Positions 2,927-33,583 of a stretch of 34,264 nt of DNA are shown piece by piece. Position 1 is the first letter of the stretch; each line of letters begins with the position of its first letter. The stretch spans positions 1 through 34,264 of IMG/VR virus record IMGVR_UViG_3300017735_000046; one strand, written 5' to 3'. Origin of the DNA: a virus. The notes under the pieces are model-generated. The model was not told the DNA's origin, ran no database searches, and was given only the letters and a program-made list of their open reading frames with translations. The position numbers and the translations under genes were made by a program.

Positions 2927-4908
2927 TGGATGATGAACAATTAGGCTCAGTGATCTCGCGTGAGATTACAGAAAGCCTTAATCATTTCGACACTGAATAT
3001 ACGCAAGACCGTATTGACGCTCTTGATTATTATTTGGGTCGGCCTTTTGGAAATGAAGTCGAAGGGCGTTCGTCCGTAGTTAGTACAGAGGTTGCTGATA
3101 CGGTTGAACAGATTATGCCTTCGATGATGCGCATCTTTACAGGCACAGATAAAGTTGTTCGCTTTTCGCCTCGCACTGAAGAGGACGTGGAGAAGGCTGA
3201 ACAGGCCACCGATTATGTGAATTTTATACTGCAAAATGATAACGATTATTACCGCGTCTTATATAACTTCATCAAAGACTCCTTGTTGTTTAAAATTGGA
3301 GTTGTCAAAGTGTCGTGGGACGAAACTGATGAAGTGCAGTCGGAGACCTATGAGGGCTTGGAGCAGGGAGAGCTTGCGCTCTTACTGGCAAACCCTGATG
3401 TCGAGATTGTTGAACAGTCTGAAGAAATAATCGTTAAAGGCGATGAGGAGTTAGGGATTGAAGAGGTTGCGCGTTATGACGTGACGCTCAAGACCCGCAC
3501 CAAGTCTGGTCGCATACGCGTCGAGAATGTGCCGCCAGAAGAGTTCCTGACAAATAGACGCTGTAAGAGCCTTGATGACGCACGCTTTATTTGCCACCGA
3601 ACCACAATGACCGTTTCTGAGTTGGTCAGCATGGGTTACGACCAAGACGAGATAGAAGCCTATGCGGGCATCGGTGAGCTTGAAACAGAAACAGAGCGCC
3701 GCAAAAGATTTGAAGATCTGGACGCCCAGCAAGATTATAATTACTCCGACCCTTCACAGCGCGAAGTGCCAGTCTATGAGAGCTATATCCGCGTGGATTA
3801 TGACGAGGACGGAGTTGCGGAACATCGCCGCGTTTTAAGCATTGGTGACGGCGGGGAACACGTTTTAGAAAATGGTTTAATTGATTACTGCCCCTTTGCC
3901 GTCATTAGCCCTATCCTTATGCCGCACCGTCTGATTGGGCGCTCTATCTTTGACCTGACAAAAGATTTGCAGGTTATTAAATCAACCCTCATGCGCCAGT
4001 ATCTCGACAGCACTTATTTAAGTGTGATGCCGCGTATTGTGGCTGTAGAGGGGCAAGTAAACCTCGATGATTTATTAGATGGGACTGCCGGCGGTATCAT
4101 TCGGGCAAGAAACGCAGGCGCGGTTCAACCGCTAAACACAGGCGGCGTTGGTGCTGAAATACAGCCTTTGATGCGGTATCTGGACGAAATCAAAGAAAAC
4201 AGAACTGGCATGAGCAAAGCCTCGCAAGGCTTGGATGCAAACGCCCTACAGTCGACAACTGCGGCGGCGGTAGCGGCTACGGTTAAGGGCGCAGGCCAGA
4301 AGCTAGAATCTTATGCCAGAACCATTGCCGAAACAGGCATGAAGGACTTGCATAAAATTATTCTTAAACTTGTTTCCACTTACCAGCAACAGCCCAGAAT
4401 AATTCGCCTGAGAAACAAATTTATTCCTATAGACCCGCGTGAGTTTGAGGGCTTCGATATTACGGTAAATGTCGGGCTTGGCACGATGGACGAGCAAGAA
4501 AAGATGAGCCGCTTGATGGAGATCATAGTCAAGCAAGAGCAAATCCTTCAACAGCTTGGCGCAAATAACCCGATTGTCTCAATGGAACAATATACAAACA
4601 CTCTGCGCCAATATGTAGAGCTTGCGGGGATGAAGGACGCGGGGCGTTACTTCAAAGATCCGGCGCAGGTGCAAATGCAGATGCAAGCGCAACAGGCACA
4701 ACAGCCAGCGCCTAACCCTGCAATGGTTAAGCTACAGCAAGACTTTGAATTGAAGAAAGCCAAGATGGAAGCTGAGATAGCTCTAGAGCGTGAAAAGCTA
4801 CAGATGGAAATGGATTTGCGGCGTCAGGAGTTGGCGGCTGAAAGTCAGCTACGCGCGGCGAAGGCTATAACCGATGCAGAGATAAGCACTAATCTGCCTC
4901 GCGCATGA
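2923..4908 (+). CDS. portal protein
   Basis: The portal forms the dodecameric ring at the special head vertex, through which DNA enters and leaves and on which the tail is built. The 661-residue length fits the podovirus/P22-type group. N-terminal features include DALDYYLGRPFGNEVEGRSS and EQIMPSMMRIFTGTDKVVRF, and the middle holds the PFAVISPILMPHRLIGRSI and RTGMSKASQGLDANALQ blocks typical of these portals. The C-terminal 100 residues are Gln/Lys/Glu-rich and predicted as a long coiled helix (barrel). ATG at 2923 overlaps the upstream stop; ATG at 2926 is also possible. Its last bases overlap the acyltransferase gene. Confidence 0.92.
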   Translation: MMDDEQLGSVISREITESLNHFDTEYTQDRIDALDYYLGRPFGNEVEGRSSVVSTEVADTVEQIMPSMMRIFTGTDKVVRFSPRTEEDVEKAEQATDYVNFILQNDNDYYRVLYNFIKDSLLFKIGVVKVSWDETDEVQSETYEGLEQGELALLLANPDVEIVEQSEEIIVKGDEELGIEEVARYDVTLKTRTKSGRIRVENVPPEEFLTNRRCKSLDDARFICHRTTMTVSELVSMGYDQDEIEAYAGIGELETETERRKRFEDLDAQQDYNYSDPSQREVPVYESYIRVDYDEDGVAEHRRVLSIGDGGEHVLENGLIDYCPFAVISPILMPHRLIGRSIFDLTKDLQVIKSTLMRQYLDSTYLSVMPRIVAVEGQVNLDDLLDGTAGGIIRARNAGAVQPLNTGGVGAEIQPLMRYLDEIKENRTGMSKASQGLDANALQSTTAAAVAATVKGAGQKLESYARTIAETGMKDLHKIILKLVSTYQQQPRIIRLRNKFIPIDPREFEGFDITVNVGLGTMDEQEKMSRLMEIIVKQEQILQQLGANNPIVSMEQYTNTLRQYVELAGMKDAGRYFKDPAQVQMQMQAQQAQQPAPNPAMVKLQQDFELKKAKMEAEIALEREKLQMEMDLRRQELAAESQLRAAKAITDAEISTNLPRA

Positions 4909-5300
4909 GCAAGTTCGGGGACATTTGTACGTTACTCGCAACGTCAGGAACTTACACGCACTGGTCATTAGCAAAGATTGGTGAGGCTATTGGATACCCG
5001 CTTAGTTTAAATCAGTGCTTTGTATATTACCGCGATGAAAAGCCTGTCGGCATCATCACTTATGCTTATGTAAGCGATGAAGCGCTATCTGCTTTGATGT
5101 CTGGTGAGCGCGTTATACAGCATGAAGATTGGCAAAGCGGAGAGCATTTATTTGTGCCGGACTTAATAGCGCCTTTTGGCGATGTTCGCACAATGACAAA
5201 ACACTTTCACAAATTTGTGAAAGGCTTTCATGGAGAGGGGTTTCGGTGCAACTGGTATCGACCCGCTTTAAAAAGGACAGGATATGCAAAAACACGCTGA
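4905..5300 (+). CDS. HlyC-like toxin-activating lysine acyltransferase
   Basis: The 131-residue protein matches the HlyC/ApxIC family (PF02794), which uses acyl-ACP to fatty-acylate internal lysines of RTX toxins. Shared blocks are NQCFVYYRDEKPVGIITYA (HlyC NQYALLTRDNYPVAYCSWA), EDWQSGE (EDWTSGD) and PDLIAPFGD (IDWIAPFGD). HlyC catalytic His23 and Asp92 align with H19 (in YTHW) and D86 (in VPDLIAP). HlyC is about 170 residues, so this is a compact form missing the C-terminal extension. It is coupled to the portal by an ATGA overlap and overlaps the next gene by 17 bases. No RTX toxin repeats occur in the window, so a phage structural protein or a host protein is the likely substrate. Family assignment is strong; the role in the phage is unknown. 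Confidence 0.85.
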   Translation: MSKFGDICTLLATSGTYTHWSLAKIGEAIGYPLSLNQCFVYYRDEKPVGIITYAYVSDEALSALMSGERVIQHEDWQSGEHLFVPDLIAPFGDVRTMTKHFHKFVKGFHGEGFRCNWYRPALKRTGYAKTR

Positions 5301-6714
5301 CATATTCAAGCTAGATATTTCCGAAAAGATTGAACGTGCTTTCTATTGCTTTGGCTCAGACGATGGCGGCGGTGGTGGAGATGAGCCGGACGGCGTTACC
5401 TTTACTGGCGCAGGCGGTGGTCAGGGCGTAAAAATAAGCTCCGACACTTTAGCTTCTAATTCTACTGAGGACACCTTTGGCGGGCGGAATACATCTGCCG
5501 CCGCGCTTGACCCCTTTGGCGGTGCAGGCGGAAATGTTAGCGATATTTTGGCTGGCAATATTAACGCTATGGGCGAAAGCCTTGCCAACGCATCATCCGG
5601 CGGATTTGGCGGCGGTGGCTCAGAGAGCGATGCGCTTGCTCAAATTGCGGCGGCGGGTGGAAACACTTTTGCCACCTCTGCGCCAGCACGCGCGCAAGCT
5701 ACTGGAATCGGTGCGCGTCCGTTTTCTAGAACATCGGCAACAAACGATGTGGGCATCACTACATCTAGAGGAAGCCCATTACCCGCTTTGGCTGGCGCGT
5801 TGTTAGCGCCTGAATTGCAAAACCCAGCTTTTAGAAATGCTTTATCGGCTGGCGCGCCTGCCCCTGAGTTACAGAGCCCAGCTTTCAGAAATGCTCTGTC
5901 GCAACAGCCTCAGACGCTTTCTCAGCAAGCCGCATCGCAAGCGCGTGGTCAAAGCACTGTTGGCGACTTTGTTGATGATGAATATAATTCTGTGCAGAAC
6001 CCAAATATTCAGCGTGGCGCTGGGGTGGATGTCAGCACTTTTGATGAAGAGCAAACGTCCGCTATTTCAGACGGCTTTCTAGATGAAAGAGGCCGCGCTG
6101 ACACAGATGTTCTTGCGCAAGAGGCAATAGATTATTTTAGCAGTCCATTAGTGCAGGCGGTTCAAGCGGCTGAAAATTTCAGCCCAACTTTGGGCATCTT
6201 AAATTCAATAACAGGAAACCCAAGCCTTACTAGAGACAAAGCTGGCCTGCCGATAAATAGGATCGGCGATATGCAACGTGGCGTCCAGATGGGCGGGCGT
6301 TTGGAATTAGGCGAAGATGGTAGCCCTGCTTTTGTCACAATGCCGGATGGGTCTATTGTTGGCGATAGCCTTTTTAGTGGGGCAACCTCTGCATCCTCTG
6401 GCGGTGATGATGGACAGCCAGTAGCGCCGCAACCAAACCCAATAACAGGCCAGCCACGCTGTCCTAGTGGCTACGCTTTTGATGCAAGTGTTGGTGCTTG
6501 CATGCCAACTAAACAATCTGGAAGCCCTGTGTCCAACTTCCCTGCCAACCCAGATATGTATGTTCGGCAGACAGCGCTGGATAGCGCGCCATCGAATGTT
6601 CCAACTGGTTTTGATTTCAACTCGGCTAACCGCCGCTTCCAAGAGTCGTATGCTTACCGTCCACAATATTATGGACGCGACCCAATGCAATTAACAGGAT
6701 TCACTAAAATATAA
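5284..6714 (+). CDS. Gly/Ala-rich structural protein with tandem repeat and Cys-loop
   Basis: The 476-residue protein is rich in Gly, Ala, Ser and Gln with low predicted order. It contains a GGGG-rich N-terminal part, a tandem repeat of PELQxPAFRNALS (about residues 178-208, bases 5812-5904), and a small motif CPSGYAFDASVGAC with cysteines at about 393 and 406. Position between portal and scaffold suggests a virion-associated protein, possibly internal. As the gene directly after the acyltransferase it is one candidate substrate. Several lysines are present but it is lysine-poor overall. No family name is known to me. Confidence 0.75.
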   Translation: MQKHADIFKLDISEKIERAFYCFGSDDGGGGGDEPDGVTFTGAGGGQGVKISSDTLASNSTEDTFGGRNTSAAALDPFGGAGGNVSDILAGNINAMGESLANASSGGFGGGGSESDALAQIAAAGGNTFATSAPARAQATGIGARPFSRTSATNDVGITTSRGSPLPALAGALLAPELQNPAFRNALSAGAPAPELQSPAFRNALSQQPQTLSQQAASQARGQSTVGDFVDDEYNSVQNPNIQRGAGVDVSTFDEEQTSAISDGFLDERGRADTDVLAQEAIDYFSSPLVQAVQAAENFSPTLGILNSITGNPSLTRDKAGLPINRIGDMQRGVQMGGRLELGEDGSPAFVTMPDGSIVGDSLFSGATSASSGGDDGQPVAPQPNPITGQPRCPSGYAFDASVGACMPTKQSGSPVSNFPANPDMYVRQTALDSAPSNVPTGFDFNSANRRFQESYAYRPQYYGRDPMQLTGFTKI

Positions 6715-16932: not shown

Positions 16933-17256
16933 ATGGCTAAAAACTCGATAAGAGATTTTTCGGCAACCGCCTCGTCAAACACCGATATTCAGTCGGTAGA
17001 CATTGACGAGAACTGCGCGGCCTCTGGCATAAATAACGCCATTCGAGAGTTGATGGCCGATCTGGCTGATGTTGCAGATGGCACAGAGGGCGTCACCGCC
17101 TTTACTGTGCAAAACTCCGCAGGGACAAGCAAATATAAACTGGAAATTAGCGGCACTGACTTGGTTCTCAGCTATAACGGCACAGGCATCTTGAAAGTGG
17201 AGTCTGACGGTCATTTAACAGTCGCAGACGACTTAACAGCATTTGGGACTATATAA
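16933..17256 (+). CDS. tail fibre base module A
   Basis: The 107-residue protein carries SATASSNTDIQSVDI and NAIRELMADLADVADGTEGV, an N-terminal tail-fibre module widespread in marine phages that links fibres to the tail. It then has a short beta-rich part (KYKLEISGTDLVLSYNGTG). Usually this module heads a long fibre polypeptide; here it is a separate short gene, followed at once by the adhesin gene. A paralogous module opens the gene at 18629. Confidence 0.8.
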   Translation: MAKNSIRDFSATASSNTDIQSVDIDENCAASGINNAIRELMADLADVADGTEGVTAFTVQNSAGTSKYKLEISGTDLVLSYNGTGILKVESDGHLTVADDLTAFGTI

Positions 17257-18251
17257 TGGCTATTGCGGCATCAGGTGCAGTAAGTTTTTCAGACCTACGA
17301 ACTGAATTTGTGGGCGGTTCTTCTGCCGTATCTTACTCAGATTTATATCGTGGCGGCTCAAACATTAGGTCTAAGGCCGCAAACAATACTGGCCTAAACT
17401 TAGCCGCATCTGTACCAACAAGCGGCACAATAAACATGACAAATTTTAGAAGCCAAGCTAAAGGATTTAGGTTTACTTTTTCTGCTACAGCTACAGATCA
17501 AAATGCGTCAGCTTTATTTGGTTCTGACTATGGTGTGAACTATCCTAAACAAATTGTTATTGATAGTGGCGTAGAGCTTGGTGCAACAAGCACATCAGAG
17601 GAAGCGTTAGAGATTGATACTGGTGGTGTGGGCACGATTACCATTACTAACAATGGCACGCTGTCTGGTGCTGGTGGTTCAGCAGGGGCTGACGGTGGCG
17701 ATGCTTTTGAAGCGGCAGTCAACTGCACCTTTATTAATAATGGTATTGTTCGTGCTGGTGGCGGCGGTGGTGGTGCTGGTGGTAATGGCAGTTCTGAAAG
17801 TGTAGGCAGTTTTATAGGTGGTTCTTATCCTTATCTCTGGGGTGTTAAAAGCAACAGATTAGAATTTTATTGGGGTGGCTCTAGAGTTGTAAACCAAGCA
17901 GTGTCTAACGGCTTTAGCTACACAGCTTTTGGCATTTATCGTAGGGGTACTTTTGTAACAACTGGTGCGCTTGGGCATCACTACACGATAGCACAGGCAA
18001 GCACTACAAACACCACAGGCGGCTCTGGCGGTGTAGGGCAAGGGTATAATCAATCTGCTGGCACTGGTGGAGCCGGCGGCACTAACGCCGGAACAGGCGG
18101 TGCTGGTGGTAGTTTTGGTGCGTCTGGTTCAACAGGCGCAAATGGGAATAGCACAAACGGTTCTTCTAGTGGTGTATCAGGCAAATATTTGCGTGGCTCA
18201 TCATTCGTAACATTTACAAATAACGGTACAGCACAGGGGGGCACAGCATAA
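17256..18251 (+). CDS. glycine-rich tail fibre adhesin
   Basis: The 331-residue protein is the likely receptor-binding tip. An N-terminal part (GAVSFSDLRTEFVGGSSAVS, SDLYRGGSNIRSKAANNTG) resembles fibre attachment sequences of T4-like marine phages. From about residue 145 it has many poly-Gly motifs (GAGGSAGADGGDA, AGGGGGGAGGNG, GGSGGVGQG, GAGGTNAGTGGAGG) separated by variable loops, as in the gp38-type adhesins, where polyglycine helices form a sandwich with receptor-binding loops. The middle loop, about residues 190-250, is Tyr/Trp-rich and may be host-specific. Confidence 0.8.
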   Translation: MAIAASGAVSFSDLRTEFVGGSSAVSYSDLYRGGSNIRSKAANNTGLNLAASVPTSGTINMTNFRSQAKGFRFTFSATATDQNASALFGSDYGVNYPKQIVIDSGVELGATSTSEEALEIDTGGVGTITITNNGTLSGAGGSAGADGGDAFEAAVNCTFINNGIVRAGGGGGGAGGNGSSESVGSFIGGSYPYLWGVKSNRLEFYWGGSRVVNQAVSNGFSYTAFGIYRRGTFVTTGALGHHYTIAQASTTNTTGGSGGVGQGYNQSAGTGGAGGTNAGTGGAGGSFGASGSTGANGNSTNGSSSGVSGKYLRGSSFVTFTNNGTAQGGTA

Positions 18252-18628: not shown

Positions 18629-19159
18629 ATGGCTAAAGATAAACTCTCCGAATATGATGCTACCGCCGTTAATAATACAGACGTTGGCGGCGTAAATCTG
18701 GCAGAATCTAGTATGCTCCCAAGCGATGTCAATAATGCCATCAGAGAGCTACTTTCGCATCTGAAGAACTTTGCGGCAGGGACGGACGGCATTGACGTTC
18801 TGTCGCTGGCTGACGATGACGCAAGCCACTCTATCAAGTTCCAAGCTCCCTCTGCGGTAACAACCACAACCACCTTCACCCTACCTGATGGCGATGGTAC
18901 AGCAGATCAAGTGATTAAAACCAACGGTTCTGGCACACTGGCATGGACAAGCCTTTCCGGCGGTGCTGGCTACTTTCAGGGTGAAAACGGTGTAACTGGT
19001 GATGCAACTAACGGCAAGGGTGATATCTTTCGGGTGCATGAGCAACAGCTAGACACAAACACCACCATCGCGGCTGGTGATAACGCTGGGGCTTTCTTTA
19101 GCCTGACAGTTGCAACAGGGGTTACGTTGACGGTTAACGGAAACTTGGTGATAGCATGA
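18629..19159 (+). CDS. tail fibre base module B
   Basis: The 176-residue protein has the same fibre-base pattern as the gene at 16933: ATAVNNTDVGGVNLAE and NAIRELLSHLKNFAAGTDGI. This is followed by VTTTTTFTLPDGDGTADQVI and GSGTLAWTSLSGG, a classic fibre beta-repeat linker, and ends with NGNLVIA, like the tip cassettes downstream. It probably starts a second fibre that carries the cassette products. Overlaps the next gene by ATGA. Confidence 0.8.
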   Translation: MAKDKLSEYDATAVNNTDVGGVNLAESSMLPSDVNNAIRELLSHLKNFAAGTDGIDVLSLADDDASHSIKFQAPSAVTTTTTFTLPDGDGTADQVIKTNGSGTLAWTSLSGGAGYFQGENGVTGDATNGKGDIFRVHEQQLDTNTTIAAGDNAGAFFSLTVATGVTLTVNGNLVIA

Positions 19160-19596
19160 GTACGATAAAAGCAGATACAATCGTAGCGGCAGACGGCACT
19201 AGCCCTGTCACGCTGACGAAGCAAGAAGCTGTGAAACAGTGGATTTCTTGGGATGGTCATAATAATGTCATTGAAGGTTCGCTCAATGTGAGCAGTGTTA
19301 TAGATGAAGAAACTGGCGTTTATACGCTTAACATAACATCTGCGTTTTCATCTCAACATGATAGGTGCATTTTTACAACTTTATATAACAGTAATGACGA
19401 TGGGGCTACCGTTGAAAGCGGTTCTTCAAGAGCGATGGGTACAGTAGTTGTTGGCACAAACTCAAACAACACGATAGACCCTCTTTCTACAACAACAATT
19501 CAATATAGCACAGCTTACGGTTCAACTGGTCAATCTGATGGTGGCATGTTTGATTTGTGTAATGTTTGGGTTACGTCACTAGGAGACCTAGCATGA
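19156..19596 (+). CDS. fibre tip cassette 1
   Basis: The 146-residue protein starts with STIKADTIVAADGTSPVTLT, then KQWISWDGHNNVIEGSLNVS, and ends in GDLA. The central W-x-G-x...S-x-N-V-S...G-x-Y-T-L-N-I pattern is the C-terminal beta domain of many marine phage tail fibres. It is the first of three tandem paralogues. The end sequence GGAGACCTAGCAT supplies both its GDLA C-terminus and the ribosome site of the next gene. Confidence 0.78.
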   Translation: MSTIKADTIVAADGTSPVTLTKQEAVKQWISWDGHNNVIEGSLNVSSVIDEETGVYTLNITSAFSSQHDRCIFTTLYNSNDDGATVESGSSRAMGTVVVGTNSNNTIDPLSTTTIQYSTAYGSTGQSDGGMFDLCNVWVTSLGDLA

Positions 19597-20009
19597 GTGA
19601 GATTATTACAGACAAACTCACTGGCAAGACTTCTGCTGGCGATGTGACGATTACCTCTGAGGGCGGTTCTGCTACAATGCAACTGCAACAGGGAGTTGCG
19701 AAGGCTTGGGGCTACTTAAACGGTGACAACACTACCTTTTATGACAGCTTTGGCATAAGTAGCGCATCAGACGAGGGAATTGGAGACACGAATTTTACAT
19801 TAAGCAATGCAATGTCTGGCACAAATTATGCTTGTGTATGTGCGGCTGGACAAAACACAGATAGTGAACACGTCTCAAATGCTTGTCCTAACAATGGTAC
19901 TAGAACAACTACTGTTTTTCAAATAGGTACAGGATACGTTGTTCCATCTGCCAGTGGTCAGGCTGATAGAGATAGCGTTAACTTTACTATCACAGGAGAC
20001 CTCGCATAA
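19593..20009 (+). CDS. fibre tip cassette 2
   Basis: The 138-residue protein starts at ATG 19593 (ATGA overlap; an in-frame start at 19566 would run into cassette 1). It has the same plan: SEIITDKLTGKTSAGDVTI, KAWGYLNGDNTTFYDSFG, GDTNFTLSNAM and a GDLA ending. Cysteines in YACVCAAGQN are unlike the other cassettes. The loops after the conserved core differ, as expected for receptor-facing surfaces. Confidence 0.78.
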   Translation: MSEIITDKLTGKTSAGDVTITSEGGSATMQLQQGVAKAWGYLNGDNTTFYDSFGISSASDEGIGDTNFTLSNAMSGTNYACVCAAGQNTDSEHVSNACPNNGTRTTTVFQIGTGYVVPSASGQADRDSVNFTITGDLA

Positions 20010-20413
20010 TGGCTGGCAAGATTATAGCAGACCAAATAGAACACAGCACCGCTGGGTCACTTGATACGCAGTACGTTGTTAATGGTAGTGCGAAGGCTTG
20101 GGTGAACTTCAATGGCACAGGCACTATTGCGGCAAGGGATAGCTTAAATACAAGTTCTTTAACGGATAATGGTACAGGAGATTATACTGTTACAATTAGT
20201 AACGCTCTTTCAAATGCAAATTATTCTTTTGTAGGAACTTGCGCTCATACTAATAATGGTGGTTCTAGCCGTTGTCATAGCGTCAGCCAAAAAGGAAGCC
20301 AAACGCCTACAACAACTGTATATCATCCGTATTTAATTTTTATGGATAATGGCAATTCTGGGATAACAGATAGTGCTTATGTGATGACACAAATTATTGG
20401 AGACCTAGCATAA
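20009..20413 (+). CDS. fibre tip cassette 3
   Basis: The 134-residue protein has AGKIIADQIEHSTAGSLDTQ, KAWVNFNGTGTIAARDSLNT, GDYTVTISNALSNANYSFV and the GDLA ending. KAWVNFNGTGT followed by S-x-TDNGTGDYTV is the most canonical version of this fibre domain. The TAATG overlap with cassette 2 and the GGAGACC junction at its end continue the cassette pattern. Confidence 0.8.
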   Translation: MAGKIIADQIEHSTAGSLDTQYVVNGSAKAWVNFNGTGTIAARDSLNTSSLTDNGTGDYTVTISNALSNANYSFVGTCAHTNNGGSSRCHSVSQKGSQTPTTTVYHPYLIFMDNGNSGITDSAYVMTQIIGDLA

Positions 20414-20871
20414 TGCAAACACCTGACTTCAAAGGCATAAAGCTATTTGACCGTCTGTGCTGGGCTAAAGAAAACCTTGAGCCTGTGCAGTCAGATTATC
20501 GTGTGGTCTATGAGGACAGCATTGATGAGTGCGCCAAGATACTTGTGCCTGACCCTAACTGGATGGCTTGTGCCTTACAGGGCGGCATCTTACCGCCTGT
20601 ATGGGTGTATCACGAACTGGCAAAAGATGAAGCACAGCCAGATTTTAAGAAGCATACCAGAGGCTACCTTCTGCATGAGACTGAGCCAATGCCAGCCATG
20701 ACAGAGGAGCAGGCCGTTGAATACTTAATTTTGAAGGACTGCCCAGCCGATGTTGTCGCTAACTTCGACAAGGGCAACCGCAAAACTTTGGTTATCTGCA
20801 AGAAAGAGCAGATACCGCAACAGCGCACTTGGCGTAATGCTTGGCGCATCAATCAAGACTTAGCCGCATAG
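20413..20871 (+). CDS. fibre-region protein with C-terminal RxWRNAWR motif
   Basis: The 152-residue protein overlaps cassette 3 by TAATG. It ends in QQRTWRNAWRINQDLA; an [RF]RNAW motif is found at the ends of small tail-associated proteins across marine phages. The rest (DRLCWAKENLEPVQSDYRV, LPPVWVYHELAKDE) has no function I know. Its neighbour at 20881 has a matching motif (NRDFRGAWSL), so the pair may act together in fibre assembly. Confidence 0.7.
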   Translation: MQTPDFKGIKLFDRLCWAKENLEPVQSDYRVVYEDSIDECAKILVPDPNWMACALQGGILPPVWVYHELAKDEAQPDFKKHTRGYLLHETEPMPAMTEEQAVEYLILKDCPADVVANFDKGNRKTLVICKKEQIPQQRTWRNAWRINQDLAA

Positions 20872-20880
20872 GAGAAACTG

Positions 20881-21249
20881 ATGGCTGTAACAACATATAT
20901 TGTTGATAAAGATGGGAACAGCATAGACGCCTCAACTGCTACCGTTCCTGCAAACAGAGACTTTCGTGGTGCTTGGTCACTGTCAGGCTCAGTGATTTCT
21001 GAGGACATGGATAAAGCCAAAGAGATATTTAAAGACAAAATCCGTGAAGTACGCGCCCCACTTCTTGAAGCTAAAGATGTGGAACTGATGAAGGCGTTGG
21101 AAGCTGGCACTAGCACAACCGCTATTGCCGCCGCAAAGGATGCACTGCGTGACGCACCAGCCGCATCTGCTATTGATGCCGCTACTGACATCGCTGGCTT
21201 GAAGGCCGCTTGGGATACAAGCGTTCTTGGTGATAGCCCTTACGCATAG
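20881..21249 (+). CDS. small tail-associated protein with FRxAW motif
   Basis: The 122-residue protein begins TTYIVDKDGNSIDAS, followed by NRDFRGAWSLSGSVISEDM and helical AKEIFKDKIREVRAPLL, VELMKALEAG, AAKDALRDAP. This order (FRNAW, DM-xA, helix, D-x-L-x-R-D-x-P) is the common small protein next to tail fibres in podoviruses and myoviruses of marine bacteria. Function not established. Ribosome site AGGAG is clear. Confidence 0.8.
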   Translation: MAVTTYIVDKDGNSIDASTATVPANRDFRGAWSLSGSVISEDMDKAKEIFKDKIREVRAPLLEAKDVELMKALEAGTSTTAIAAAKDALRDAPAASAIDAATDIAGLKAAWDTSVLGDSPYA

Positions 21250-25169: not shown

Positions 25170-26285
25170 ATGATCCACATTGGCACACCAACGACCACAG
25201 AGGTGGTGCAGAGGGACGGCACAACACGCATATCGTGGGTCGTCTCTTACAAAGACAACGCTGGCAAGCGCAGACGCATCTATTCAAAGTCTGAAGCTGA
25301 AATGTCGAAAAAGATATCCCAGCTTGAGGATGAATTGAAAGCGGGCCAGCACAATGCAAACCGCATATCTTTTAGCAACGCCGCTATAGAGGCTCTCCAA
25401 GCTAGAGCCGAACTGGTAGGCAAAAAGAACGGCATCCGGCCTCAGACCCACGCTAATGATGAGCGTCACCTGCGGCTCTACCTCACGCCGCATTTTGCAT
25501 CAACGCAAATGCGTAACCTTACCACAGGCGTCATAAACCTGTTCATAGACAAGATGGCGGCTGACGAGGTTAGCCCAAAGACCCAGCGCCACGTTATCAA
25601 CACGCTTAACATGGTCTGCAAGTTTGCGGTGGCTAAAGGCTACCTGTTAACCAACCCCTGTGCTAAAGGCGACAGGCAACAGATACGCGGCTCTATGGGT
25701 GAGCGTAAAGGCTACACCGCAGACGAAGTGCAGGCTATTTTATTGCAGAAAATCACGCCGCAGGTTCGCGCTATGATTACCACCGCCGCCTTTACTGGCC
25801 TTGCCGCTAACGAGTTGCAGGGGCTACAGTGGAAAGATATAGACCTGCACTCCGGCTCATTGTCCGTAGAGCGCACAGGCTTTAGGTACATGGTTCAGGA
25901 CGAAACCAAAACTGAATACCGCCGCCGGACTTTGCCATTAACCTCTGCGCTAATTAGAACGCTCAGAGAGTGGCAACTAAAGTGCCATAGTCAAGTGTGG
26001 GTTTTCCCTGCCGTACATGGGCGCATGGGGGAGCAAAACGCATGGCGCAAACAGATTGCCGGCGTATGCAAACAGGCTGGCGTAGCTGACAAAGGTTTAG
26101 GTGGGTTCAGAAAGTTTTTCCACACACAGATGGAAACAGCATGCGTGCCGGAGTCTATCCGCAAATATCGGATGGGTCACTCGAAGAAGTCGAACACTGC
26201 AAAGGTTCATTACACTGACGCGGATGTGAAGCTGGCTCATAGCGTTTCAGATCTAGAAAAGATTGCTCAGAAGGTGCTTGCATAA
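25170..26285 (+). CDS. int: tyrosine recombinase, phage integrase
   Basis: The 371-residue enzyme should join attP to the tRNA-fMet gene. It has an N-terminal arm-binding domain (about 1-60), a SAM-like core-binding domain (about 68-165) and a catalytic domain (about 175-371). Active-site residues K247 (ETKTEYRRRTLPL), R314 (GGFRKFF), H337 (MGHS) and Y348 (VHYTD) are seen. The first catalytic Arg is missing: the usual TGLRxxEL reads TGLAANEL (A212), and the usual His of HxLR is a Gly (G311). The gene is otherwise intact. Distance to attP is about 1 kb, with two genes between. Confidence 0.9.
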   Translation: MIHIGTPTTTEVVQRDGTTRISWVVSYKDNAGKRRRIYSKSEAEMSKKISQLEDELKAGQHNANRISFSNAAIEALQARAELVGKKNGIRPQTHANDERHLRLYLTPHFASTQMRNLTTGVINLFIDKMAADEVSPKTQRHVINTLNMVCKFAVAKGYLLTNPCAKGDRQQIRGSMGERKGYTADEVQAILLQKITPQVRAMITTAAFTGLAANELQGLQWKDIDLHSGSLSVERTGFRYMVQDETKTEYRRRTLPLTSALIRTLREWQLKCHSQVWVFPAVHGRMGEQNAWRKQIAGVCKQAGVADKGLGGFRKFFHTQMETACVPESIRKYRMGHSKKSNTAKVHYTDADVKLAHSVSDLEKIAQKVLA

Positions 26286-27020: not shown

Positions 27021-27245
27021 TCAGAAGGGAAGATCATCTTTCTTCTCTGCTTTTTTTACCTTGCCAGCCATCCAGCTTCCATCGCCCTTTTTGTCATAAA
27101 GGTTTAGGTAATAAAGCTGACCATCGATGGTGATACTGCCATCAAAATCGCAGTGCCAATCTTCGGTCTTTTGATCTTCTGCTTTACGGTTTATGGAAGC
27201 GGTCATTTCGTCCTTTCCATATTTTACTTGTTTAGCTTGTTCCAT
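27021..27245 (-). CDS. small protein with SSB-like DDLPF tail
   Basis: The 74-residue protein contains DWHCDFDGSITIDGQLYYLN and LYDKKGDGSWMAGKVKK, and ends in KKDDLPF. Bacterial SSB ends in D-D-D-I-P-F, through which it recruits repair and replication proteins. Sitting next to the ERF annealing gene, it may be a small ssDNA-related or SSB-mimic accessory. The main part is too short for a full OB fold. It overlaps the end of the ERF gene start region by 14 bases. Confidence 0.72.
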   Translation of the reverse strand: MEQAKQVKYGKDEMTASINRKAEDQKTEDWHCDFDGSITIDGQLYYLNLYDKKGDGSWMAGKVKKAEKKDDLPF

Positions 27246-27948
27246 TTTCTAAGACTTCCTTTCTGCTACTAAACAAATTAATCAAGCCTGTGTTGTCAGG
27301 CTTTAAAGTGTTGAACAGGGCAACCAGTTCTGTTTGCGAACTGGCCTCTGCCAACACTTCTTCAAGAAACGCTTTCTTTTGCTCCAGCGCACTTAAACTT
27401 GTCCATTCGGTTTCAAAGCCAAAAAGTTTTTCTTCAAAAGTCAAAACTTTCGGAGTAAGCGTCTCGCCCCCCTCTTCAGTTGGATCAGAGGGAGGCGAGT
27501 TAGCGCCAGAGGGCAGGGAGGAAACAACCCCTCGCGCTTTATCTGTATTTAATTGCTTTGGTGGGTCGGTCAGGTTGCCGTTTATTTCGCCATCATCGTC
27601 AGCCTCATCAACGCCCTTTTCTGAACCAAACATAGAGGCCAGCGCGTAGCGTTTTGCGTATGTAACAGCGCCGCCGACCTTTTGGTTGTTCGTCACATCA
27701 TCGACCCATATCGGATATCTGCTTTCGCGCTTCTCGCCGCTTATGTGCATCATCACTGTGCGCACGAACATTGTCTGCCCCTCAAAATCAACCTCTTGCG
27801 TAAAGCAAAGGCCAAACTGTGTGGCTTGTTTGATGTTGTTAATTACCGCGCCGATAGAGGCATATTTAGACCGCGCCCCTTTACTATCCGCCTCGAACCC
27901 AGACGAGCTTTTCTGAAACTGCAAAAGCGCTTTAGCCAATTCACTCAT
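27232..27948 (-). CDS. erf: ERF-family ssDNA annealing protein
   Basis: The 238-residue protein promotes annealing of single strands, as P22 Erf. It has the core pattern: ALLQFQKSSSGFEADSKGAR, KYASIGAVINNIKQATQFGL, CFTQEVDFEGQTMFVRTVMM, HISGEKRESRYPIW, and NQKVGGAVTYAKRYALASMF. The C-terminal half after about residue 130 is a flexible linker and a small helical domain. It pairs with the exonuclease upstream in the operon (overlap ATGA). Confidence 0.93.
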   Translation of the reverse strand: MSELAKALLQFQKSSSGFEADSKGARSKYASIGAVINNIKQATQFGLCFTQEVDFEGQTMFVRTVMMHISGEKRESRYPIWVDDVTNNQKVGGAVTYAKRYALASMFGSEKGVDEADDDGEINGNLTDPPKQLNTDKARGVVSSLPSGANSPPSDPTEEGGETLTPKVLTFEEKLFGFETEWTSLSALEQKKAFLEEVLAEASSQTELVALFNTLKPDNTGLINLFSSRKEVLENGTS

Positions 27949-28865
27949 TTAATGATCTCCACTTTCTTGGCATTGTTTTTTGCGACCTTCACGCGGATGC
28001 CATGCCCAAAAGCCTCAGAGGCATGGGGTGGCACTAGCTTTTTGATAGCCGCTTCGGTTTTTTTGAAAGTTTCTGCCGCGCCGGAGACCTGTATGTAAGA
28101 CTCCGCCAACTGCTTCCAGCGCGCGTCATTGTTGCTCTGCGCCATATCAACAGGCAGGCGATCTTCAGGCGGTAGCGCTATTTCAACGCGCTCCATCTCG
28201 TCAGGGTAGACACCCATTTCGATGCAACCCATAAAGTATGTGGCAAGCCCGATAAGGTGTTTGGTGTAATCTTTATCTATTTTTATTTCGTGAAAGGTTG
28301 GCTCGTTGCCACCGCGCAAAATGGATAGCAAGCCATAGTCAACAGGTAAGCCCTCTGTCTCTTCTAACAGATAAGCGTTCCAGTGTAGCTGGGGAGTATA
28401 TTTGCGCACCAAGCGAGGTATTACTTCGTCCCAGCCCTCGCCCTTCATAGGCCGACCCATCGTAAACTTTGCATCAAATACAGCCGCAGAATCTTTGTAA
28501 CTGTAGACCGCGCCGTCCAAAGTGCAACGCATAAAGGCGTGCTTCTGCCCATAAAGGACACGCTGGCGAGACCCGATAGCAATGCCCTGCTTAACTTGAC
28601 ACCACTCTGTGTTTAAGTCCTCAGTGACATGACCCATAACAACAGGCCAAACCATTGATAAATCATCGGGCTTGTTTTCAACCTTTCGCTCATAAAGGTC
28701 GTTAATTTTTTTTGGGTCGCCCTCTGCAAGAATATTGATTTCTGAACCGCCTACCGTCTTGAGGCGTTCTTCTTGCGACTTGGCGCTTAAAGAAAAAAAG
28801 CGAAAAAAGGCTGGTATTTCTTGCCTGTCTTCGCTCTCAGTAGTTTGTTTTGCATTTTCGCTCAT
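27945..28865 (-). CDS. YqaJ/lambda-Exo-like recombination exonuclease
   Basis: The 306-residue enzyme is presumed to resect double-stranded ends for ERF annealing. Motifs: GGSEINILAEG (39-49), MGHVTEDLN with E82, CTLDGAV with D117, VFDAKF with D131 and K133, and YTPQLHWNAYL with Q159. These correspond to the PD-(D/E)XK core of YqaJ-type nucleases. The start codon lies in an inverted repeat. First gene of the minus-strand recombination operon. Confidence 0.9.
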   Translation of the reverse strand: MSENAKQTTESEDRQEIPAFFRFFSLSAKSQEERLKTVGGSEINILAEGDPKKINDLYERKVENKPDDLSMVWPVVMGHVTEDLNTEWCQVKQGIAIGSRQRVLYGQKHAFMRCTLDGAVYSYKDSAAVFDAKFTMGRPMKGEGWDEVIPRLVRKYTPQLHWNAYLLEETEGLPVDYGLLSILRGGNEPTFHEIKIDKDYTKHLIGLATYFMGCIEMGVYPDEMERVEIALPPEDRLPVDMAQSNNDARWKQLAESYIQVSGAAETFKKTEAAIKKLVPPHASEAFGHGIRVKVAKNNAKKVEIIK

Positions 28866-28919
28866 GCCCCTTTTTACTACGGGGCATAGTTTAGGTCAAG
28901 CATTTATGCTCATATATGC
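28863..28919 (-). promoter_or_regulatory. promoter/operator of the recombination operon with start-codon hairpin
   Basis: Palindromes GCATTTATGC (28900-28909) and TCATATATGC (28910-28919) are operator-like. On the minus strand TTGACC (28899-28894) could be a -35 box, with TAAAAA (28876-28871) at 17-base spacing, putting the transcript start at or near the ATG (28865), that is, leaderless. ATGCCCC/GGGGCAT (28864-28870, 28881-28887) forms a perfect 7-bp inverted repeat taking in the start codon, if the transcript starts further upstream. Confidence 0.5.
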
Positions 28920-29512
28920 TATCTAGCAAGATTGATACTAAGCACAGGCGCAACCTGTTTTAAATCACTCCCAAAAGATTCTTCAGTGTTATCTTTCAGT
29001 TTCAACCAAACATCCCCGCCCAATGCCTCTCGCACCACAGCTATTGTTTTGTTCCCCTTTTGCAAGACTAGAACGCAAATGTCGTTCAACTTTGCTTCTA
29101 TATCTGGGTCACAGAAAAGAAAGTCGCCATGCCGCAATCGAGGCGTCATTGCTTCTCCGCAGTTAAACATACCAAAAGCGTTTTGCGCTAAAGCCAAAAG
29201 AGGCGGGCGTGCAATCCGGCTGGTCATAGACATATCAAACCGCACACTTTCGCCATCTGGTTCTGGCAGTGCAAAAACAGGTATATCTTCTGAAAGATCG
29301 ATATTGGTTGGCTGGTATTGGTCGGGCGCTAAAATTGTATCCTCGTTGCACTTTAATATTTTGCTTAGTGCGTTAAGGTGCGTGCCAACCCTTCTCCGGC
29401 CTTTTTCTATCCGGCTGTATTCAGCCTGATTAATGCCAAGTTTTTCTGCAACTTGACCCTGTGTTAGACTTTTTGCGTCGCGCAAACGTCTTAAATTATT
29501 TGGGTACTCCAT
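28919..29512 (-). CDS. CI-like repressor, catalytically dead S24 domain
   Basis: This is the lysogeny repressor, 197 residues. An XRE helix-turn-helix is at about residues 8-60 (LTQGQVAEKLGINQAEYSRI). The C-terminal domain (about 112-197) has the LexA/CI layout: FGMFNCGEAMTPRLRHGDFL, then LNDICVLVLQKGN. Ser of the GxSM motif is Ala (A121) and the catalytic Lys position aligns with V159/V160, so self-cleavage is unlikely. The domain could still dimerise. ATG at 29512 follows GGAG. It faces cro across a shared control region and ends at the operators of the recombination operon. Confidence 0.9.
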   Translation of the reverse strand: MEYPNNLRRLRDAKSLTQGQVAEKLGINQAEYSRIEKGRRRVGTHLNALSKILKCNEDTILAPDQYQPTNIDLSEDIPVFALPEPDGESVRFDMSMTSRIARPPLLALAQNAFGMFNCGEAMTPRLRHGDFLFCDPDIEAKLNDICVLVLQKGNKTIAVVREALGGDVWLKLKDNTEESFGSDLKQVAPVLSINLAR

Positions 29513-32991: not shown

Positions 32992-33019
32992 ATGGGTGCG
33001 CCGTAGGGGCGCTTTTTTT
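32992..33019 (+). terminator. short terminator-like hairpin with a four-codon leader ORF
   Basis: ATG-GGT-GCG-CCG-TAG (32992-33006) is preceded by AGGA. GCGCC (32998-33002) pairs with GGCGC (33008-33012) over a 5-base loop and is followed by seven T (33013-33019). It could be an attenuator under control of leader translation, or a weak terminator that the late operon must read through. Confidence 0.5.
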
Positions 33020-33583
33020 ATGAGTGAACACATTCCGTTCCCACAAGGAAAGTATCAGGTCATTTATGCTGACCCTGCTTGGACATACAAAGTCTGGAGC
33101 AAGAAAGGGGCGGGAAGAACTGCGGCCTCTCATTATGATGTTATGCAGATTGAGGATATAAAGGCGCTTCCTGTTGCTGAACTGGCTGACAAAAACTGCG
33201 CACTTTTTATGTGGGCGACTTACCCAAACCTAAAAGAGGCTTTTGAAGTGATTGAGTCTTGGGGCTTCACTTATAAAACCGTTGCTTTTACTTGGGTCAA
33301 AAAGAACAAAGTTAGTGATAGCTGGTTTTGGGGAATGGGTTATTGGACAAGAGCAAACGCAGAAATATGCTTGCTTGCAACAAAGGGAAAGCCAAAGTCT
33401 GTTTCTCGTTCTGTTCATCAGGTCGTGGATGCACGCATAGAGAGGCATTCAAAAAAGCCAGATGAAGTCAGGAATAGAATTATAAAATTGATGGGTGATG
33501 TACCACGCATTGAACTGTTCGCACGTCAACGCTTTGAAGGATGGTCAGTGTGGGGAAATGAGGTAAGAGATGCCGAAGTTTGA
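32996..33583 (+). CDS. MT-A70 family DNA adenine methyltransferase
   Basis: The enzyme probably methylates adenine N6 in phage DNA. It has YADPAW (about 25-29) in place of the usual DPPW, followed by TYKVWSKKGAGRTAASHYDV, ALFMWATYPNLKEAFEVIE, FTWVKKN and RANAEICLLATKGKP, all typical of MT-A70 phage enzymes. Two starts are possible: GTG 32996, with an AGGA eight bases before, and ATG 33020 right after the T-run. No partner restriction enzyme is present, so a protective or regulatory role is likely. Confidence 0.92.
   Translation: MRRRGAFFMSEHIPFPQGKYQVIYADPAWTYKVWSKKGAGRTAASHYDVMQIEDIKALPVAELADKNCALFMWATYPNLKEAFEVIESWGFTYKTVAFTWVKKNKVSDSWFWGMGYWTRANAEICLLATKGKPKSVSRSVHQVVDARIERHSKKPDEVRNRIIKLMGDVPRIELFARQRFEGWSVWGNEVRDAEV

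Follow-up and report, generated by a model that had tools for sequence, protein, structure and literature searches.

Slot-specific anchors and exchangeable heads in three adjacent tail-fibre genes of a marine phage genome

The window analysed here is the whole of IMG/VR virus record IMGVR_UViG_3300017735_000046 (34,264 bases). It encodes an SU10-type portal (PF23899, Pfam scan) and an SU10-type major capsid protein (PF17236), as well as a tyrosine integrase (25170-26285) and an HTH/S24-like repressor (28919-29512), and on account of the latter two genes the phage is probably temperate. A near-identity search with 24 kb of the window returned no match to named phages. An MT-A70 family methyltransferase (PF05063) is located at 32996-33583.

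The locus of interest consists of three adjacent genes on the plus strand (19156-19596, 19593-20009 and 20009-20413; hereafter cassettes 1 to 3), which overlap or abut through ATGA at 19593-19596 and TAATG at 20009 and 20413 (Table 1). All three match phrog_11355 'tail fiber protein' (E 9e-11, 2e-15 and 3e-20, respectively), and with gene 3 as query gene 2 is recovered at E 8e-12 and gene 1 at E 8e-7, confirming a preliminary description of the locus, made from the sequence alone, as three consecutive paralogues. The KxW and SSxxD core and the GDLA end noted there are present in all three products; the common start pattern is not, as each position carries its own N-terminal type. Also confirmed is the junction motif GGAGACCTxGCAT, which occurs at exactly three sites (19582, 19995 and 20399) and nowhere else in the window with up to one mismatch; 0.05 matches are expected by chance, and none of 100 shuffles contained three. 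Gene 1 has no upstream junction, its start overlapping the stop of the preceding shaft-like gene. Homologues of the latter lie directly 5′ of the array in many relatives, and it weakly matches a tail fibre family (phrog_11439, E 0.008). Further upstream, at 17256-18251, lies a glycine-rich fibre-like gene (phrog_10745). Directly downstream of the array, gene 20413 probably encodes an assembly factor, its homologues being found directly after split arrays and single-chain fibres alike. Its predicted structure (a moderate model, pLDDT 74) has no match in the PDB, and a reading as HNH endonuclease, suggested by a weak match (E 7e-4), was dropped, as the gene follows fibre genes in every context. 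The next gene, 20881, shows weak similarity to tail fibre assembly proteins.

Table 1. Features of the fibre-tip locus and candidate recombination genes in the window
Feature	Position	Strand	Remarks
Shaft-like fibre gene	18629..19159	+	upstream of array; stop overlaps cassette 1 start
Slot A anchor	19156..19236	+	27 aa, MSTIKADTIVAADGTSPVTLTKQEAVK; slot-specific N-terminus
Cassette 1 head	19237..19581	+	96% identical to L050 slot A head
Junction 1	19582..19594	+	GGAGACCTAGCAT; GDLA codons, right border of swapped head, cassette 2 ribosome site
Slot B anchor	19593..19703	+	37 aa, MSEIITDKLTGKTSAGDVTITSEGGSATMQLQQGVAK; slot-specific N-terminus
Left border, cassette 2	19697..19712	+	TGCGAAGGCTTGGGGC, AKAWG codons; repeat D3, second copy at 20089
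Cassette 2 head	19704..19994	+	at most 32% identical to slot B heads of 11 relatives compared
Junction 2	19995..20007	+	GGAGACCTCGCAT; cassette 3 ribosome site; L050 and L005 alignments resume exactly here
Slot C anchor	20009..20095	+	29 aa, MAGKIIADQIEHSTAGSLDTQYVVNGSAK; slot-specific N-terminus
Left border, cassette 3	20089..20104	+	TGCGAAGGCTTGGGTG; repeat D3, border codon bias
Cassette 3 head	20096..20398	+	predicted beta sandwich
Junction 3	20399..20411	+	GGAGACCTAGCAT; ribosome site of gene 20413
Gene 20413	20413..20871	+	conserved, 152 aa; putative assembly factor
Gene 20881	20881..21249	+	phrog_20196 E 1e-39; phrog_4912 E 0.007
Erf-type single-strand annealing protein	27232..27948	-	PF04404 E 5.5e-15; phrog_2324 E 2e-23
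RecE-like recombination exonuclease	27945..28865	-	phrog_434 E 6e-26

Relatives of the locus were gathered through gene 20881 and a far relative of gene 20413 instead of through the cassettes, so that cassette counts are unbiased by the query. Their comparison reveals that each cassette gene is built of two parts, an N-terminal slot anchor of 27-37 residues, which extends to the K of AKxW, and a beta-sandwich head of about 100 residues. The anchors are specific for their slots: slot A is of the type MSTLKADTI..SPVTLTKQSAAK, slot B of the type MSEILVDNLTGKTSAGDITVTSEGGAATxxLQQGLAK and slot C of the type MAGKIIADTLEHSTAGSxTTxYVVNGSAK. The nearest neighbour of an anchor resides in its own slot in 117 of 118 cases, and anchor identity amounts to 0.649 within slots compared with 0.262 between them. 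Heads, by comparison, are practically independent of slot, with identities of 0.284 within and 0.277 between slots and a nearest neighbour in their own slot in 55 of 141 cases, near the third expected by chance. The within-slot excess of 0.007 is small, but is not matched by shuffles, and the clade of the window's cassette 1 head occupies slot A in 8/8 loci, so that head clades are not fully slot-free. Mantel tests, which cover 38 loci and short sequences, detect almost no correlation of head similarity between slots or with flanking genes. In a tree of whole genes the positions form near-clades (8 label changes versus 75.5 in shuffled trees), yet as proof that genes keep their positions this tree is misleading, its signal deriving from the anchors only. 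The anchor would thus act as the address of the slot, probably by docking, as a short segment with beta structure, on the shaft end encoded by gene 18629.

Downstream of gene 20881, several relatives (L017, L022, L041, L053, L054, L076, L077 and others) carry a second set of three cassettes with anchors of their own (A′, B′, C′). With the profiles of the first array these score as A, B and C in that order, slot C being the weakest and some calls ambiguous. In several of these loci a lone cassette, whose anchor is of a fourth type (MALTQ...), stands before the second set.

The head is predicted to be a nine-stranded beta sandwich (model pLDDT 78; anchor about 55). At E of 0.001 or below, the model matches 57 viral proteins, including cyanophage tail fibres and tailspikes in their C-terminal portions. 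Matches in the PDB are weak, though all of a single type, the best being a tailspike C-terminal domain (Z 7.5), followed by H-type lectins (5-6) and the TNF family (about 4). All of these are oligomers, mostly trimers. The same heads also form the tips of single-chain fibres: the tip of L027 shares 91% identity with the L023 head in slot C, and that of L047 80% with the L016 head in slot A. The C-terminal head would contact the host and bind its receptor, and the host-range role ascribed to the cassettes in the preliminary description appears plausible.

Three cassettes are the usual but not the obligatory number. Among the near relatives that possess gene 20413 and a cassette, 53 of 71 loci hold an uninterrupted set of exactly three cassettes, which in 46 cases lies away from contig ends. 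The other 18 loci include 9 cut at contig ends, five with a foreign slot B head (L011, L032, L046, L075 and L087, some of which are also cut), two whose third cassette is fused in frame to gene 20413 or lacks the usual start (L017 and L025) and two single-chain fibres (L027 and L047). The 62 distant arrays clear of contig ends comprise 41 with three cassettes, 8 with four (four of these near-identical), 6 with two (3/6 preceded by a non-cassette head gene) and 7 with one (single-chain fibres in 5/7). Cassettes are therefore gained and lost, as had been suggested, given the sets of two and four and the single-chain fused fibres, but such events are rarer than the exchange of heads described below.

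Heads from other families (C1q, Peptidase_S74, phrog_6942) are confined, in near relatives, to the middle slot (B or B′), as at L032, L046, L075, L087, L030 and L105. The last of these is phage HMO-2011, with such heads at 958-1768 (gp39/gp38) and 4227-5001 (gp31/gp30). Several of the foreign heads are followed by an inserted small chaperone gene of their own (Phage_tail_APC). Among cultured phages, the module is known for instance from HMO-2011 (SAR116), Microcystis phage Mel-JY33 and Nostoc phage Nsp-JY18. In bacterial genomes gene 20413 was found at one locus only (L110, a Methylocystaceae MAG contig), where three cassettes and gene 20413 at 4744-6423 possibly belong to a prophage and may give a clue to the host. 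In Dunaliella viridis virus SI2 (L189, 1433-3399) a single-chain fibre ends in a cassette-type head and GDLA and is followed by a gene 20413 homologue; tailed-phage genes in a record named as an algal virus make its host assignment look doubtful.

How the three chains assemble is a matter of likelihood. Each slot chain probably forms its own homotrimer, an arrangement we hold to be fairly, though by no means overwhelmingly, likely; the heads of the Peptidase_S74, C1q and phrog_6942 families that enter slot B with their own chaperones fit it. Mixed fibres from separate polypeptides, as the preliminary description envisaged, may plausibly exist. A tentative alternative is an obligate A:B:C heterotrimer, in which one chain from each slot gene contributes to a single trimeric tip with three different heads. 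Consistent with such a tip, three is the usual number of cassettes, the second arrays also count three in the order A-B-C, the ATGA and TAATG overlaps fit coupled 1:1:1 translation, and the anchors of slots A and B covary beyond the flanking genes (r 0.25, p 0.001). There is also a precedent in virophage DSLV2, whose three consecutive tail proteins assemble as a 1:1:1 heterotrimer (PMC12724248). The heads, however, do not covary between slots (A-B r -0.01, B-C -0.04), and any combination of heads about 28% identical seems to be allowed, which is hard to reconcile with heads that pack together. Moreover, sets of two and four exist, the same heads also serve single-chain fibres, and slot B accommodates a C1q domain head as well as Peptidase_S74 heads. 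Peptidase_S74 heads mature as homotrimers. Together, these observations lower the fixed heterotrimer as the main explanation. If an obligate A:B:C tip existed, which we consider doubtful, each fibre would display three receptor specificities and recombination would sample their combinations.

The small remaining weight falls on a serial chain of beads, in which each product forms a homotrimer and three homotrimers are stacked end to end on the shaft. A neck fibre built as such a bead chain from several gene products has been described for cyanophage A-1(L) (PMC10966104). GDLA, however, is kept on the last cassette and on single-chain fibres with nothing behind, and hence is not a docking site for a next bead; stacking through GDLA was dropped for this reason. 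In addition, the hypervariable heads would need to carry the next bead, making this arrangement improbable.

Regardless of how the chains assemble, heads are exchanged within and between slots. Four clear pairs of near-identical heads occupy different slots; the head proteins are 97, 86, 82 and 75% identical, the anchors 22-31%. In their DNA alignments, similarity begins at or near the AKxW codons and stops at GGAGACC, and the first pair combines heads of 97% identity over 313 bases with flanking DNA of about 75%. Eight of the head families known from more than one genome are split between slots. Sister phages were compared in 29 pairs of loci whose downstream DNA is at least 88% identical; the pairs share loci and are thus not independent. 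In these, 71 of 87 heads have been replaced and most anchors kept. Aggregated over the pairs, DNA identity drops at the first base of the GGA in GGAGAC, from 0.95 to 0.39, and declines over the AKxW codons from about 0.77 to 0.45. L010 and L044, for instance, share 98.7% identity in 5.2 kb of upstream and 95.3% in 1.1 kb of downstream DNA, but differ in 3/3 heads, and the slot C head of L010 is found in slot B of L044. Similarly, the window shares head 1 with L050 at 96% identity, while heads 2 and 3 are 26 and 37% identical; the alignments stop at 19702 and resume at 19995 and 20399. At the left border of cassette 2 the last aligned position is 19702 with L050, 19696 with L005 and 19709 with L004. 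The loci are metagenomic contigs, many of them fragments, and chimeric assembly may account for a single pair; since the breakpoints agree over many pairs, it is not enough as the overall cause.

On the basis of these results, what is swapped is the head; the unit begins at the AKxW codons, which lie 27-37 codons into the gene, and ends at GGAGACC. The preliminary description had proposed modules swapped by recombination at the junctions, and its breakpoint at GGAGACC is found both as the drop of identity in sister pairs and as the end of the cross-slot alignments; fixed, non-exchanging genes, which would have spoken against it, are not what the relatives show. Its observations and its recombination modules thus stand, but its unit, the whole gene between two junctions, does not, as the left border lies inside the gene. 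Taken literally, such gain and loss of whole cassettes through GGAGACC junctions draws on the two-gene arrays L151, L161 and L174 and the four-gene arrays L118, L121, L122 and L127. The left breakpoint, however, is mostly situated at AKxW within the gene and the anchor stays, replacements of the whole gene including its anchor being the minority (for example slot B of L080/L082), so that whole-gene gain and loss is refuted as the main mode and persists as a minor one.

The DNA at both borders is in agreement with exchange. GGAG precedes the ATG by 7 nt for gene 2 and by 10 nt for genes 3 and 20413, supporting the proposal that each junction is the ribosome site of the next gene, albeit the third serves gene 20413, which is not a cassette. 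In GDLA, GGA is the Gly codon in 93% of cassettes, against 23% in the remainder of these genes, and GAC is the Asp codon in 89% (39% elsewhere). The ribosome site may suffice for the bias towards GGA, but does not require that towards GAC, and junction similarity is therefore more than codon use. The left border provides a second conserved DNA stretch, GCGAAG, inside the gene, where no ribosome site is needed; Ala is encoded here by GCG in 71 of 108 cases (15% elsewhere) and Lys by AAG in 100 of 140. At L011 (587-862) the junction GGAGACTTAGCATAATGG has been joined to the 3′ end of an unrelated ORF (phrog_9114), which thereby acquires the terminal residues KGDLA. Recombination appears to have maintained both borders as shared DNA, with translation also acting on the right one.

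That no exchange takes place, the genes being old paralogues with fast-evolving heads and a junction held by ribosome site and codon use alone, is thus highly improbable: GGAG is a good ribosome site and must account for some of the GGA conservation, but the codon bias extends to the left border, where there is no such site, and cross-slot heads 97% identical in DNA between flanks of 75% already refute this explanation. Diversification by a diversity-generating retroelement or a DNA invertase would suit hypervariable heads, but can practically be dismissed, given that whole unrelated heads are replaced instead of scattered substitutions, that neither a reverse transcriptase (PF00078) nor a serine recombinase (PF00239) is present in the record, which may be incomplete, and that a repeat search found no inverted repeats flanking the heads.

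We propose that these phages replace heads as blocks by recombination at two conserved stretches of DNA, of which GCGAAGGCTTGG (AKAW codons) forms the left border and GGAGACCTxGCAT the right; as the right border carries the ribosome site of the next gene, an incoming head would keep the operon translated. The phage's own Erf-type and RecE-like pair is the likely recombinase and may drive the exchange. With DNA of 78% identity, the recombination efficiency of an Erf/Exo pair was similar to that of lambda Red and greatly exceeded that of RecA (PMC3945230). For the reading as a whole, three fibre-tip slots with interchangeable receptor-facing heads, we estimate a probability of roughly 0.8.

Exchange of receptor-binding domains between phages is well known, usually in the form of long, ill-defined mosaics. 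Here the unit of exchange is very small (about 100 residues) and both borders are fixed within a few codons. The address of the slot and the head are separable, the same heads being at work in several slots and in single-chain fibres, and a single stretch of DNA is at once protein end, recombination border and ribosome site. Phages nearly identical upstream can bear three different heads, and head swapping would let them reshuffle their binding targets. Abundant marine phages may thus possess, in these cassettes, a natural plug-in library of receptor-binding heads, which offers a simple route to study how a phage changes its binding target.

Cassette arrays of this kind were not found described in the open-licence literature, but several known systems resemble them in part. 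The branched tailspike clusters of Ackermannviridae (TSP1-TSP4), large spikes joined by XD and TD domains, likewise place receptor-binding proteins side by side, with conserved N-terminal parts that fix their place and variable C-terminal parts exchanged by recombination at conserved 5′ ends (PMC11414711). The cassettes share this combination of a position-specific N-terminus and an exchangeable C-terminus. In contrast to these spikes, however, their chains measure about 130 aa and their anchors about 30 aa; the three products gave no Pfam match above cut-off, and anchors of 27-37 aa appear too short for an XD domain. Moreover, conserved DNA bounds the head on both sides, heads are passed from slot to slot, and the right border doubles as a ribosome site. 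In virophage DSLV2, too, three paralogous tail genes follow one another, their positions conserved and the tip variable (PMC12724248), but its proteins of 196-247 aa carry a PF07484 collar, which a Pfam scan did not find in the cassettes, and form a heterotrimer that has been measured. The phrog_11355 fibres of Puniceispirillum phage HMO-2011 belong to the same family and have the same neighbouring genes, and differ by a foreign head with its own chaperone in slot B and by a second array. In Alteromonas phages A5, V22 and P24 fibre modules also move between distant marine phages, but there whole fibre-chaperone modules are transferred (PMC10579305), whereas in phages of the window's kind the head moves alone. 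Finally, the relaxed recombination of Rad52-like phage recombinases (PMC3945230) offers a parallel both in the Erf/exonuclease pair and in mosaic borders at short homologies; proven in the laboratory for lambdoid phages, it is deduced here from genome comparison.
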